Source: Puniceicoccus vermicola
GTDB taxonomy: Bacteria > Verrucomicrobiota > Verrucomicrobiia > Opitutales > Puniceicoccaceae
Assembly: GCF_014230055.1 (NCBI RefSeq)
Contig: NZ_JACHVA010000005.1
Span: 1 to 47,409, forward strand
Length of the DNA stretch: 47,409 nt
Direction of reading: 5' to 3'
Positions 7,337-34,998 of this stretch are shown piece by piece; the stretch's first letter is position 1, and every line of letters begins with the position of its first letter. The translations under genes were made by a program, and so were the position numbers. The notes under the pieces are model-generated. The model was not told where the DNA came from. It searched no databases and worked only from the letters and a program-made list of their open reading frames with translations.

Positions 7337-9271
7337 ATGTCTCTTCGAAAAATTGCTTTGTTCCAACTTGCTCTCTTGACCGTCCCCGCGGCTTTTCTGA
7401 TTGCCGCAGAGGATGAGATGAACTCCGAGACTCCGATCCGCACCCTTTCCCCAAAGGCATCCGTTTTCGAAGACCTAAACCTGAACGAGAACGAGATGGA
7501 CCTTCTTCGCAGCCTTCATTCCCAAGCGATCCACGATGCCCAGAAGCCACTAATCGAACGGCCTACCACTCTTGAGGAGCTCAAAGCCTCCGGTCTGCGG
7601 ATGAAATATCCGGAGAAACCTCTCCATCTCAGCCAGATCAGTGAGGAAACATGGGAACAAGTGGCTCTCAGCTTCGCCGACATCGACATCGCCTATGGCA
7701 TGGCGGCAAAACTGCCCCGCATGGCCGCCTGCGCCCGCTTCACCCAAGACGCGGAGCTCGGTCAATACGTTGCCGATCAGCTCATGATCATTTCGACCTG
7801 GGATCCCCTTCAACGTCCGGGATGGTCCCTTCGCAACAACAACAGAATCACGATTCCTGCGGACGGAGATGGCGCGTGGCTCGGCACTGGCTGGATGATC
7901 CGGGCGATCACCGATTCAATGGCTCTACTCCCCGATGAATACAAAACACCCGAGCTTGAGGAGGCGGTTCATCATCGGCTCAACGAAGAGATCGATTCTC
8001 TCATGGACGACTGGAATACCAAGCGCCAGTGGTTCTTCCGAGTCGAGGCTGCCAGCTCCAATCAATGGGTCATGCCCAGCGAGGCCATGATCCGGGCCAG
8101 CCTCTTCACCGGGAAAGACGAACATCCGGAAGCCTATGAGGTTGGCGTACAGAACCTTCTCAAAACTCTCGATACCCTCGGCGAAAATGGGGAGTTTCCC
8201 GAAGGACTTTCCTATTCCTCGATGACCCTGACGGGAATCGTCTTGGCCGCCGGAGCTGCGGCGGAAGAGGGAGATTTGCGCCTGATCGAGCACCCGTTCC
8301 TCCAAAACTATCCCACCTGGTTCGCCCACCACATCCAGCCCGGAAATGCCCTCATCAATTCTTTCGATATGGGAAAACCCGAGGTGACCGATTACGACTT
8401 TCAACAGAGCATGGCACTCTTCGCCGTTTACCTCGACAATCCAGTGGCACTTTGGACTCTCGAGAATTACACGGGATTCCCCAAAACGATTGAAGGTGTC
8501 ATCGCAAGCATACTTCCGACTACAGACGCCGAAGCGCCCTCCCTCTTTGCCTATTATCCAATGGCTACGAGGGTGAACTGGCGCGATAGTTGGGCAAAGG
8601 ATTCCTCGGGATTCTGGATGCGGGGCGGACACATCGAAGATTCCCACGATCATATGGATCGGGGACATGTCAACTTTACCGTCGACGGAGACCCCATCCT
8701 TATCGAAGCCGGAAAGCCGCCCTACGACGACCCTCGTTACTTCTCCCACTTCAAGAGTGTCGCCGGACACAACGTCCTGCAAGTCGGCACGCAGTCACCC
8801 GAAGATTTCTCAGAAGAATCCCTCCGGGCGGGAGGAGGGCAGATTCTAGCCGGAGATCATCGTGAAGCCCCGATGGAAGTTCTTCGACTCGACAGTCTCG
8901 GAGGAGAGGTCACCGTCGATGCTTCAAACGCGTATGCGACGGTTGAGGAGTGGATACGGAATGCGTCATGGGACAGCGAAGAGCTGACCGTCATCGATAC
9001 CGTGGAGCTTGAAATGCCGGAAACGATGCTCTTTCGTTGGCATCTAAACGAGCGGGCGAATTCCCCGATCGAATGGAGCGAGAAAAAACTATTGGTGGGA
9101 GACGTAGTGATCCAATGGGAATCCGACACACCCATTCGGGTTCAAACCGAATTGATGCCCGCAACGAAAGGCCACGGTCGACCGATTGAAGAAAAAATCT
9201 GCGTCGTCATGACCACCGAGCAACCGGGCACTTCCTGGAACCTCCGTACAACAATCTCCACGAAGCCCTGA
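7337..9271 (+). CDS. Heparinase II/III-family polysaccharide lyase, secreted
   Basis: From ATG 7337 the product has 644 residues: a signal peptide (about 1-24), an alpha/alpha-toroid domain (roughly 60-400) containing RPGWSLRNNNRI and the N-Q-W segment SSNQWVMPSEAMI, then the beta-sandwich Heparinase II/III domain. That domain has the signature SHDHMDRGHVNF, with a probable catalytic or metal-site His, followed by YFSHFKSVAGHNVLQVG. Family members (PL12/15/17/21-type) cleave uronic-acid polysaccharides by beta-elimination. The substrate (alginate-like, glycosaminoglycan-like or other) is not deducible by eye. The gene is co-oriented with and 23 bases behind the pseudopilin, inside an operator-flanked unit. 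The regulator at 9402 is next. Confidence 0.85.
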   Translation: MSLRKIALFQLALLTVPAAFLIAAEDEMNSETPIRTLSPKASVFEDLNLNENEMDLLRSLHSQAIHDAQKPLIERPTTLEELKASGLRMKYPEKPLHLSQISEETWEQVALSFADIDIAYGMAAKLPRMAACARFTQDAELGQYVADQLMIISTWDPLQRPGWSLRNNNRITIPADGDGAWLGTGWMIRAITDSMALLPDEYKTPELEEAVHHRLNEEIDSLMDDWNTKRQWFFRVEAASSNQWVMPSEAMIRASLFTGKDEHPEAYEVGVQNLLKTLDTLGENGEFPEGLSYSSMTLTGIVLAAGAAAEEGDLRLIEHPFLQNYPTWFAHHIQPGNALINSFDMGKPEVTDYDFQQSMALFAVYLDNPVALWTLENYTGFPKTIEGVIASILPTTDAEAPSLFAYYPMATRVNWRDSWAKDSSGFWMRGGHIEDSHDHMDRGHVNFTVDGDPILIEAGKPPYDDPRYFSHFKSVAGHNVLQVGTQSPEDFSEESLRAGGGQILAGDHREAPMEVLRLDSLGGEVTVDASNAYATVEEWIRNASWDSEELTVIDTVELEMPETMLFRWHLNERANSPIEWSEKKLLVGDVVIQWESDTPIRVQTELMPATKGHGRPIEEKICVVMTTEQPGTSWNLRTTISTKP

Positions 9272-13970: not shown

Positions 13971-14020
13971 CTAGGTTTCGAGGAGCGCTCTTTTCGGAGC
14001 TTTTTCGCTGCGAAACCTAG
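13971..14020. repeat. 10-bp perfect inverted repeat downstream of the dehydrogenase gene
   Basis: CTAGGTTTCG (13971-13980) and CGAAACCTAG (14011-14020) are exact inverses with a 30-base T-rich loop. No T-tract follows the stem. It may be a weak bidirectional terminator or a binding site in the 324-base interval before gltB, where nothing else is recognised. Confidence 0.4.
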
Positions 14021-31711: not shown

Positions 31712-32206
31712 TCAATACATTTGTGGGCTGTGATGATCGACGAACTCGCATTCGCCGACAGCGAATGATTTCTGACTCGTCGTCAATCTGGCAATACAGG
31801 TCGTTTTCAACTCTTTGTCTTCCCCCGAGAGAAGATGGAGAAGCGAGCTGATCCCGGGATTGTGGCCAACGAGGGCAATGCGCTGGGCCTGGTCATCGAA
31901 TTGTTGTAAGACTGCGAGCAGGGTCTCTGGAGTCGCCTCGTAGATTGCATCCTGTAGGAGGTAGCGCTCCCACGGCAGATTCCATTCTTCCCGAAAAAAC
32001 TGCGAGGTTTGGTAGGCGCGGATGGCGGGGCTGGAGATGAGAAGATCTGGGGCATCCCAGCGGGGACCGAATCGCTTGGCCATTTTGGGGGCGTCGCGGA
32101 GACCTCTGTCGTCCAATGGACGATCAAAGTCATTGAGATGAGGGTGTTCCCACCCGGATTTTGCGTGGCGAATCAGTATAAGCTCTCTCACAGTTCGATG
32201 ATTCAA
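31712..32206 (-). CDS. sixA: SixA-type phosphohistidine phosphatase
   Basis: A 164-residue member of the histidine phosphatase superfamily: the catalytic LILIRHAKSGW (His14) near the N-terminus, FDRPLDDRG, LLISSPAIRAYQT (second Arg), and VGHNPGISSLLH with the second catalytic His. The compact size and 'RHAKS' signature point to SixA, which removes phosphate from Hpt/PTS histidines. The start may be TTG 32206 or GTG 32191. It is the last gene of the rplM-to-sixA minus-strand series, 35 bases after recF. A weak AAGCC/GGCTT hairpin sits at 31688-31704 in the short gap to the convergent methyltransferase. Confidence 0.9.
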   Translation of the reverse strand: MNHRTVRELILIRHAKSGWEHPHLNDFDRPLDDRGLRDAPKMAKRFGPRWDAPDLLISSPAIRAYQTSQFFREEWNLPWERYLLQDAIYEATPETLLAVLQQFDDQAQRIALVGHNPGISSLLHLLSGEDKELKTTCIARLTTSQKSFAVGECEFVDHHSPQMY

Positions 32207-32241: not shown

Positions 32242-33324
32242 TCAAGAGGTGCGTTCGAATCTCCCTTCTTCAACTCTGAACACTTCCCAGTCTCCCGGAT
32301 GTCGGTCAGGATCAAACTCGGTGCCCGTCGAAAATACCTGGCAGTCCGAAGGCAGGGTTTCCCAAAAGGCTTTGCGCCGCCGGGCGTCCAACTCGCCGAG
32401 AATGTCGTCGGCCAAAAGAACGGGAGTTTCTGAGAGGTGGGAAGCCAGATCGCGAAAAAGGGCCAGTTTCAGGGCAATTGCCAGATTGCGTTGTTGCCCA
32501 TCCGAGGCGTAGTCGCGAGCGGTCCCGGTCTCCGTGGAAAAAATCCAATCATCTCGATGTGGACCTGTTTGTGTTGAGCCGAGGAGTCGATCTCGCTCAA
32601 GACCCTCGTTCCAGATGTTTCGTAGCTCCTTTGCGGAACCTTTCTGGAAAGAGCTCCTCAGGCGGAGTCCAGGGTCATCCTTCCCTCCGGATATTTTCTG
32701 GAATATGGAGGTGAACAGGGGCGATAGGGATTCGGTTCCCCGTTGGCGGTGGTGGCTGAGTGAGGCTGCCGCTTCGGAGAGAGGATAATCGTGGGCACGA
32801 ATCTGTTGGTCGGAGGCACCTTTCTTCAGGAGTCGATTGCGCGAAGCGAGTCCGCGGGTGAACTCCCTCAATGCCTCGTAGTAGCTCTTTTGAGAGGAAG
32901 CGAAATGGAGGTCCATCATTCGCCTGCGAATGCTGGGGGAGCCACGGATGATCTGAACATCGTCCGTGGCGAGGACAATAGCAGGGAAGCGCGAGAGAAA
33001 GTCGCCAAGAGTCGGGCATCTCTCTCCATTGAGTTCCACTTCGCGTCCTCCGGCTCTTTTCAGTTGGAGGAGGACGGTTTCCTGATCAGGGGCGCCGGAC
33101 TCCAGTTCGAAATAGATACGAGCCATCGATTGCTCGCGACGGATTAAATGGCGGAGGTCGGAGGTGCGGAAGGAGCGCACGGCGTGGAGAAGCCCGAGTG
33201 CTTCCAAGAGGTTCGATTTTCCCTGTCCGTTTAAACCGACAAAAAAGATCCGATCTCCCTCGAATCGCAATCGGGCGCTTTCGATATTGCGAAAGTTCTC
33301 CAGATTGCAGGAAAGAATCTTCAT
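32242..33324 (-). CDS. recF: Recombination protein RecF
   Basis: A 360-residue ABC/SMC-type ATPase: Walker A GLNGQGKSN (30-38), ATDDVQIIRGSPSIRRRMMD, TGPHRDDW, signature ASDGQQRNLAIALKLA, and Walker B PVLLADDILGELDARR. It loads RecA at single-strand gaps together with RecO and RecR. The start ATG overlaps the stop of the LysM lipoprotein gene by four bases (ATGA). recF is away from its common dnaA-dnaN location and instead sits behind ribosomal protein genes. A RecO-like gene is at 37693. Confidence 0.96.
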   Translation of the reverse strand: MKILSCNLENFRNIESARLRFEGDRIFFVGLNGQGKSNLLEALGLLHAVRSFRTSDLRHLIRREQSMARIYFELESGAPDQETVLLQLKRAGGREVELNGERCPTLGDFLSRFPAIVLATDDVQIIRGSPSIRRRMMDLHFASSQKSYYEALREFTRGLASRNRLLKKGASDQQIRAHDYPLSEAAASLSHHRQRGTESLSPLFTSIFQKISGGKDDPGLRLRSSFQKGSAKELRNIWNEGLERDRLLGSTQTGPHRDDWIFSTETGTARDYASDGQQRNLAIALKLALFRDLASHLSETPVLLADDILGELDARRRKAFWETLPSDCQVFSTGTEFDPDRHPGDWEVFRVEEGRFERTS

Positions 33325-34133
33325 TCGCCCGGTACGCGCAGCTCTTGGCCGACACGGAGGTCGTTGGGGCTCCGGAGGAGGTTGCGGTTGGCTTGGAAAA
33401 TTTCTTCCCAGCGGGCGCTGCTACCAAAGACTTTGCGGGCGATCGAGGAAAGGGTGTCCCCGGGCTGGACCACATAGACGGCGGGCTGTTCTGCTGCGCC
33501 GCCTGAACGATTGGATGAGGATGAGCCGGGGTTTGCGGTGGCGGAAAGGGTTCCCAAGCGCCGCCGGAGTTCCTGATTCTCACGTTCCAATCGGCTGATC
33601 CGGTTTTTGAGGCGATCGCTTTCTTCGCGCTGTCGCTCTACGACCTCCAGCAAATCCGTTTGCTCGACTCCGCTTTGGAACGGTCGACCGGGTAGGGTGC
33701 GGGCAAATTCCTTTTTCGCCGTATCGATGAGGCTCTCGACTTCGGGTGCTTGCTTCGCGTCGGGGCGAAGCTCCAGGAACTTCATGAAATGATAGATCGC
33801 CAGAATCGGCTGGTTCATATCATTCAGGTAAATCAAGCCCGCTTCAAGGTGTGACTCCGGGGAGTCGGTGCGGTTGTCGATGACCCGCAGAAAGGCGAGG
33901 AGCGCTTGCTCATCTTCGCCTTGGCGGAGGAACTTCTTCCCGCGGACGTATTCGGGTTCGTCAGTCTCTTCAAAGACTGCTCGGCCGCCAGGGCTGCAGG
34001 AAATCAACAAAAAAGCTGCGAGCGCACTGAAAAACAGTGCGCTCAGCAGCTTTGAAAAAGTTGAAGGCGCGAAACGGGATTCTTGCCGACCAGTCAACCC
34101 ATTGCGCAAGATATGCGGAATCAAGGGGCCCAC
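33321..34133 (-). CDS. LysM lipoprotein with TPR-like and coiled-coil segments
   Basis: A 270-residue protein: a hydrophobic segment LLSALFFSALAAFLL ending in the lipobox LISC (Cys46), then a helical repeat region (EYVRGKKFLRQGEDEQALLAFLR, TPR-like, about 60-130), a coiled coil (ESDRLKNRISRLERENQELRR), a Ser/Gly linker and a C-terminal LysM domain (VYVVQPGDTLSSIARKVFG to the end). It is predicted to be a peptidoglycan-binding outer-membrane lipoprotein. The n-region from ATG 34133 is unusually long (about 27 residues), so a TTG in that stretch might be the real start. A strong intrinsic terminator lies within the signal-peptide codons (34005-34053). It follows rpsI by 20 bases and overlaps recF by four. 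Confidence 0.85.
   Translation of the reverse strand: MGPLIPHILRNGLTGRQESRFAPSTFSKLLSALFFSALAAFLLISCSPGGRAVFEETDEPEYVRGKKFLRQGEDEQALLAFLRVIDNRTDSPESHLEAGLIYLNDMNQPILAIYHFMKFLELRPDAKQAPEVESLIDTAKKEFARTLPGRPFQSGVEQTDLLEVVERQREESDRLKNRISRLERENQELRRRLGTLSATANPGSSSSNRSGGAAEQPAVYVVQPGDTLSSIARKVFGSSARWEEIFQANRNLLRSPNDLRVGQELRVPGE
34005..34053 (-). terminator. Strong intrinsic terminator embedded in the lipoprotein signal sequence
   Basis: GAGCGCACTG/CAGTGCGCTC plus AAAGCTGC/GCAGCTTT form an 18-bp stem with one bulged base and an A5 (T5 on the transcript) loop. On the minus strand the stem is followed by TTTTTTGTTG. It lies 100-150 bases after the rpsI stop but inside the 33321-34133 gene, encoding its hydrophobic core. 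Confidence 0.85.
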
Positions 34134-34153
34134 TGGGATCCCGTTTCTGAAAA

Positions 34154-34552
34154 TTAACGCTTCGAGAACTGGAACTTCTTGCGGGCGCCGGGCTGACCGG
34201 TCTTCTTCCGCTCCTTCTCGCGAGGGTCGCGACGAAGGTGACCTTCCTTCTTAAGAGGGGCGCGGAGTTCTGCGTCATACTTCTGCAGAGCCCGAGCGAT
34301 TCCGAGAGAAACAGCTCCAGCCTGACCGGTGATTCCACCACCATTGACTCGTGCGATCACGTCGAAGGAGTCTTGCTTTTCAGCGGTGATGAGTGGAGCC
34401 GCTACGGCACGTTGTGCCTGCTCGGTTGGGAAAAATTCAGCGCAGGTCTTGCCGTTGACGGTGATTTCACCGCTGCCGGGCTTGATGCGGACGCGTGCGG
34501 AAGCGCGCTTGCGACGGCCTGTGGCCGAGAAAATAGTCGTTGTCTCACTCAT
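34154..34552 (-). CDS. rpsI: 30S ribosomal protein S9
   Basis: A 132-residue protein of usual length: ATGRRKRASARVRIKPGSGEITVNG at the start, VNGGGITGQAGAVSLGIARAL in the middle, and the basic ending PGARKKFQFSKR that reaches toward the P-site tRNA. It lies 17 bases behind rplM in the conserved rplM-rpsI pair. The strong terminator at 34005-34053 is well placed to end this ribosomal transcript. Confidence 0.98.
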   Translation of the reverse strand: MSETTTIFSATGRRKRASARVRIKPGSGEITVNGKTCAEFFPTEQAQRAVAAPLITAEKQDSFDVIARVNGGGITGQAGAVSLGIARALQKYDAELRAPLKKEGHLRRDPREKERKKTGQPGARKKFQFSKR

Positions 34553-34569: not shown

Positions 34570-34998
34570 TTAGAAAGGAAAAGAAGTCGGCTCTTGGGCA
34601 CCGTGGGGATGTTCTTCACCCGCGTAGACCTTAAGCTTCTTGATCATCTCACGAGCCAGCTTGTTCTTGGGGAGCATTCCCTTCACAGCATTCTCGATGA
34701 TGAACTCGGGGCGCTTGGCGCGGAAGTCGGCCACGTTGCGGTAGTGCTCGTTCCCCATGTAGCCGGTGTAGAACATGTATTGTTTCTGTTCTTCCTTCTT
34801 ACCGGTGAGCTTCACCTTGTCCGCATTGATGACGACGACGTAATCTCCCGTATCAATGTGCGGGGTGTAGGAAGGCTTGTGGCGGCCGCGAAGAACGTTG
34901 GCGATACGGACAGCGAGGCGACCGAGAGTTTCTTCGGAGGCGTCGACCAGGTACCAGCTACGTTCGATTTCGGCAGGTTTGGCTAAAGTGGTTTTCAT
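34570..34998 (-). CDS. rplM: 50S ribosomal protein L13
   Basis: From ATG 34998 the product has 142 residues, the family norm: [86 protein letters not shown]. An upstream in-frame start at 35043 would add a non-conserved tail and is rejected. It begins a minus-strand series continuing to rpsI, the LysM lipoprotein, recF and sixA. Two hairpins lie in its leader. Confidence 0.98.

Follow-up and report, generated by a model that had tools for sequence, protein, structure and literature searches.

Ribosomal-protein operons with an internal terminator are exemplified by rpsU-dnaG-rpoD of Escherichia coli, where the terminator is placed in a spacer. The Puniceicoccus vermicola locus described here is similar in that a ribosomal-protein gene is followed by a predicted hairpin terminator and then by a replication or repair gene needed in smaller amounts; it differs in that the hairpin sits within the translated part of the next gene. 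In E. coli reporters, a ribosome close behind RNA polymerase prevents intrinsic termination (PMC5021804), and the pyr leader and the intragenic terminators exposed by failed coupling, as presented in the same source, are likewise terminators that a close ribosome can mask. The masking ORF here would, however, be that of a lipoprotein, acting through its signal peptide; there is no separate leader peptide, and no shared antiterminator was found. ORF-internal 3' ends have been mapped experimentally in E. coli, and at least one of them (aceK int) scored as intrinsic termination (PMC7815308). The present case resembles these in that the transcript would end within coding sequence, although those ends were mapped whereas the hairpin described here is a prediction based on sequence and comparison alone. 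Among the matches listed (titles and abstract openings), no report of a terminator in signal-peptide codons was found, which does not prove that none exists.

The window, i.e., the whole 47,409-nt stretch analyzed, belongs to the P. vermicola genome (G000). On its minus strand the gene order is rplM, rpsI, lysM, recF and a sixA-like phosphatase gene, with two predicted hairpins near the start of lysM:

34570..34998, minus strand: rplM, ribosomal protein L13 (Pfam PF00572, E 4.7e-46)
34154..34552, minus strand: rpsI, ribosomal protein S9 (Pfam PF00380, E 5.7e-47)
34090..34136, minus strand: hairpin 1, the upstream hairpin, a common predicted fold in G000 and the congeneric genome G002
34009..34053, minus strand: terminator-like hairpin, 18 bp with one bulge, 5-nt loop, T6
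33321..34133, minus strand: lysM lipoprotein gene (Pfam LysM PF01476, residues 220-268, E 4.4e-11)
32242..33324, minus strand: recF (TIGR00611, 298.6 bits against a cut-off of 172)
31712..32206, minus strand: sixA-like histidine phosphatase gene (Pfam PF00300)

The sixA-like gene scored 35 bits against TIGR00249, under the cut-off of 74.5. The rpsI stop codon occupies 34156-34154, 100 nt from the stem, and the 3' end of lysM overlaps recF by 4 nt. A repeated element was considered and rejected: an 840-bp stretch is single in G000, and a model of hairpin 1 had one match there. A clean intergenic terminator lies between a Gcw_chp-family gene and rplM (about 35152-35113, minus strand), and LSU rRNA was not found in the G000 assembly.

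The 5' arm of the terminator-like stem (34053-34035, minus strand) consists of 8 bp, a bulged T at 34045 and 10 bp; it is followed by a TTTTT loop (34034-34030), a 3' arm (34029-34012) and a T6 tract (34014-34009) whose three leading T can pair with the AAA at the base of the stem. The earlier note had placed an 18-bp stem, a 5-base loop and T6 at 34053-34005; all three were recovered, with the tract ending at 34009 and with a bulge that had gone unmentioned. The predicted energy of the 45-nt hairpin is -31.2 kcal/mol, and the surrounding 161 nt fold with a z of -7.4 relative to dinucleotide shuffles. The stem corresponds to lysM codons 27-42, reading SKLLSALFFSALAAFL in frame, and is followed, after three further codons (L, I, S), by the codon of the lipobox cysteine at 33998-33996. 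Because homologues show a hydrophobic segment and a lipobox at the same place, as judged by eye, the stem can be assigned to signal-peptide codons; frame and homologues thus agree with the earlier proposal that the same bases encode the signal peptide near the lipobox of a LysM lipoprotein.

The strength of the stem was compared with chance expectation by fixing the encoded peptide and randomizing synonymous codons (5000 draws each for G000 and G002; the G002 null drew on G000 codon usage). None of the 5000 G000 draws was as stable as the observed -31.7 (mean of the null -6.7, lowest value -26.7), and none of the 5000 G002 draws matched its stem of -30.4 kcal/mol; G001, a further genome of the genus, gave a z of 0.04, and a row for G003, set out of frame, was left out. 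A genomic background was provided by the window and 20 stretches of 20 kb (447 kb, both strands), which lie on three contigs of the 5.2-Mb genome besides that of the window. Among the 3018 hairpin-plus-T sites of this sample, the lysM stem had the lowest energy, and it ranked second by a combined stem and tail score patterned on a published formula; the clean terminator upstream of rplM ranked third. A consensus scan of 8 kb returned 14 terminator-like sites against 11.0 (sd 3.5) in shuffles, and a plain scan of this kind is insufficient by itself to reveal the lysM stem as unusual.

The hairpin could in principle have arisen by chance, in that Ala, Leu, Ser and Phe codons are G+C-rich and then T-rich, so that signal peptides mimic terminators. 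Such an origin would be in keeping with the 30 compact terminator-like sites filtered from the 3018, of which 19 fell inside called genes, a count that is approximate because the 267 gene calls were home-made (in the window they missed rpsI and the sixA-like gene and started rplM at an upstream TTG). Sites with a combined score of at least 0 were likewise spread over intergenic (17), sense (19) and antisense (15) positions. Terminator-like sites in coding sequence are therefore common, and what distinguishes the lysM stem is its strength. A second terminator-like hairpin was found in apparent signal-peptide codons of another G000 gene (L068:13883-16000, near 13973, plus strand; 12 pairs including G-U, then T6; -19.6 kcal/mol), and composition alone may yield such structures; for this gene G001 and G002 gave only weak partial matches, and a genome of the same family, G003, gave none. 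Two paralogues of the L068 protein (38-39% identity) are encoded in G000, one of them at window positions 7538-9064 (plus strand). Chance is nevertheless a highly improbable explanation of the lysM stem, given the peptide-preserving null in two genomes, the location outside called genes of all four compact sites that follow it in energy, and the compensatory changes in G002 that are described below.

In G002 a stem is present at the same position, although 10 of the 16 residues over codons 27-42 differ and only 6 are identical. Of the 18 stem pairs, 12 are unchanged between the two genomes, four are double changes, one is G-U and one is broken. Pairs were related to codons by hand: one changed pair replaces both residues (A32T with A37V), two link codons 28 and 40 (K28T and A40V, each opposite the partner codon's third base), and the last joins the third base of codon 32 to a silent change in S36. 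As far as this comparison reaches, the peptide has thus shifted together with the stem. Sliding the partner strand by 1-3 columns gave zero double-change pairs, the +3 slide yielding five further pair types. If the arms had changed independently, the probability of at least four of five changed 5' positions facing the six changed 3' positions would be about 0.02, complementarity aside. Shuffling the 3' letters matched the observation in 28 of 500 shuffles, and only two sequences bear the stem, so it is the codon null and the register control that carry weight. Since the codon null was never matched and G002 retains the stem despite residue changes, the hairpin is very probably under selection. 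The null, the genome background and the compensatory changes together bear out the earlier note's view that a real terminator-like element is embedded in the signal-peptide codons.

Two sequence features of an intrinsic terminator can be recognized in each genome, i.e., a stable G+C-rich stem with a short loop (-31 kcal/mol in G000, -30 in G002) and a T tract right after it, which is T6 in G000 and a weak TTTATA in G002. The G002 tail (TTTATACTG) had a tail score of 3.07 against 4.99 in G000, and the combined scores were 5.4 and 48.6, respectively (38.5 for G000 under other trimming). Because the G002 T tract is weak, termination there should be weaker. This observation bears on the possibility that the hairpin itself is conserved rather than termination, either protecting processed rplM-rpsI mRNA at its 3' end or slowing early translation of the signal peptide. 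The strong stem above a weak tract in G002 would suit such a role, as would the conservation of hairpin 1, which covers candidate start codons; however, the full T6 of G000 lies directly at the stem, its terminator score ranks second in the genome sample, and the combined score in G002 is still slightly above zero. A role for the hairpin without termination is accordingly considered improbable.

The distribution of the element was assessed more widely. A protein match was obtained in 83 of the 87 genomes searched (G000 included), four of which belong to the family (G000, G001, G002 and G003); rpsI-lysM-recF order is kept in all four, and recF identity to G000 is 73% in G002, 60% in G001 and 49% in G003. 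The stem is absent from G001 and G003. Across 40 loci examined, a strong compact hairpin in signal-peptide codons occurred only in the records of G000 and G002; among these loci, the pairs L002/L014 and L003/L018 each very probably represent one record, and L004 ends before the signal peptide. L034 has a weaker hairpin in signal-peptide codons (-22.8); the L022 hairpin is strong (-32.9) and stops 153 nt short of the anchor, upstream of the likely start. Viral contigs gave a single 57-residue match that was of no use. The comparison with related genomes that the earlier note named as a test thus came out divided: G002 retained the stem as the peptide changed, but G001, G003 and the other members of the order examined have the protein without the stem. 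As these genomes keep the protein, the element appears to be lineage-restricted, and on the same comparison it is dispensable for recF in general.

The neighborhood of rpsI was surveyed across the order (34 of 35 genomes matched, four of these matches came with no locus to examine, and 30 loci were checked, 26 of them outside the family). A terminator with a positive score followed rpsI in 19 of the 26 non-family loci, its T tract starting 34-73 nt past the stop codon, and was missing from the other 7; the stems of these non-family terminators (L086-L111) are often GCCCTCC-like. In 16 of the 26, the next ORF starts with a GASGYSG-like motif, and two examples of this ORF match semialdehyde-dehydrogenase families; we take it to be ArgC. 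In the four family members, lysM lies downstream of rpsI in place of this ORF. In G001 and G003, the 260 nt after rpsI yielded no positively scoring terminator, and the T tracts of G000 and G002 start inside lysM, 139 and 142 nt, respectively, downstream of the rpsI stop codon. A terminator at this point therefore fits the habit of the operon, since rpsI outside the family usually precedes one, and this role appears to have shifted into lysM in G000 and G002. The simplest history would be a loss of the usual terminator as lysM-recF became the neighbor of rpsI, followed by the reappearance of one within lysM in the ancestor shared by G000 and G002; loss of the stem in G001 is an alternative history that these loci also allow.

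These observations are consistent with a selected intrinsic terminator between rplM-rpsI and lysM-recF that is passed when ribosomes translate the lipoprotein, an account to which we would give about an even chance. The hairpin would limit the entry of rplM-rpsI transcription into lysM-recF-sixA, and it probably reduces the output of these downstream genes. A ribosome on the signal-peptide codons, close behind the polymerase, would block formation of the stem and permit read-through, and where lysM had not been initiated the transcript would end at the stem. The ribosomal-protein transcript would thus supply lysM, recF and the phosphatase gene at a low level gated by translation. Because a trailing ribosome prevents intrinsic termination in E. 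coli reporters, the most likely mode of working is termination unless the signal peptide is translated; attenuation by translation of the lipoprotein leader, as the earlier note had it, is thus plausible.

Full-length lysM transcripts necessarily cross the stem. A scan of 30-38 kb listed no minus-strand promoter consensus of the sigma-70 type between rpsI and the stem, and lysM-recF is therefore probably fed by read-through, a promoter of another kind being possible. Termination in the cell, read-through as the main source of lysM-recF mRNA and translational control are what we infer from this arrangement.

The main rival is a plain, partly leaky terminator of rplM-rpsI that overlaps the next ORF, the spacer being short, and that would reduce lysM-recF expression by a fixed factor, like other internal terminators of ribosomal-protein operons, with no control by lysM translation. 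The frequency of terminators after rpsI elsewhere in the order accords with this explanation, and as none was found in G001 and G003, tight control of recF is evidently not required. Any translation of lysM, however, means ribosomes covering the stem, and the position of the stem was kept while the encoded residues changed; a leaky terminator of this kind is possible, if somewhat unlikely.

If the preferred account, a terminator gated by lysM translation, is true, a signal peptide's hydrophobic core, for which many sequences will do, also serves as a terminator, and joint replacements of residues have been guided by RNA pairing. Such a case would also indicate 5' coding sequence as a place to seek terminators that are missed by searches limited to the stretches after stop codons, and would open to test a link between recF expression in these bacteria and translation of the ribosomal-protein operon.

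Hairpin 1 consists of the helices CCAGU/ACUGG, GGCCC/GGGUU and UUG/CAA, and both candidate lysM starts (GTG 34133 and TTG 34097) lie inside it. Its counterpart in G002 is near L014:1498-1544, and the two genomes share invariant blocks of 21 nt and 18 nt that pair with one another. The three main helices are invariant between G000 and G002 and therefore offer no covariation. In stability the fold barely exceeds shuffles (6 to 42 of 200 were as good). Residues shared by the two proteins use identical codons in 9 of 11 cases in the first 16 codons versus 83 of 187 in the mature protein. Across rplM-recF, 267 of 2649 52-nt windows were at least as conserved as hairpin 1 at the best register tried (389 to 643 at other registers), and on this measure the conservation of its DNA is not extreme.

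Among 372 genomes drawn from the order, the hairpin 1 model matched strongly at this locus in G000 and G002 only. A candidate carrier, G222 (E 0.007), was rejected with 6 of 16 pairs broken, as was a weak second match in G002 (E 0.088), which is read as GVGPL in the frame of a long ORF; this ORF presumably encodes an MFS transporter, which it resembles. No Rfam family reached its gathering score in the region (three matches, E 0.7 to 7.7, fell far below), and a known riboswitch or ribosomal-protein leader was rejected, there being no match to a curated RNA family.

Hairpin 1 could control lysM initiation. The start, GTG or TTG, is not fixed; the GTG has only GGGA upstream, and SD-like cores are uncommon in G000 (42 of 263 genes, from rough gene calls). 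A two-part translation sensor can be imagined in which hairpin 1 would hide the lysM starts and the stem would terminate transcription unless lysM were initiated, e.g., by ribosomes arriving from rpsI. The supply of LysM lipoprotein and RecF would then be tied to translation of the ribosomal-protein operon, and the stem would have dictated the paired residue replacements. This fuller scheme is tentative and rather unlikely.

A separate short leader ORF, as in attenuators of the trpL/pyrL type, was not found, the ORF over the stem being lysM itself. A shared antiterminator was not found either: when the leader was folded without the 3' arm, the 5' arm paired differently in G000 and G002. On the minus strand of G000, GAAACGGGAT (34147-34138) and ATCCCGTTTC (34080-34071) could form a 10-bp helix around hairpin 1, which is absent from the G002 fold, where a different small hairpin is predicted. 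A two-codon ORF, ATG GGT TGA (34102-34094), ends before the stem and is thus not a leader ORF over it; its stop codon overlaps the TTG candidate start.
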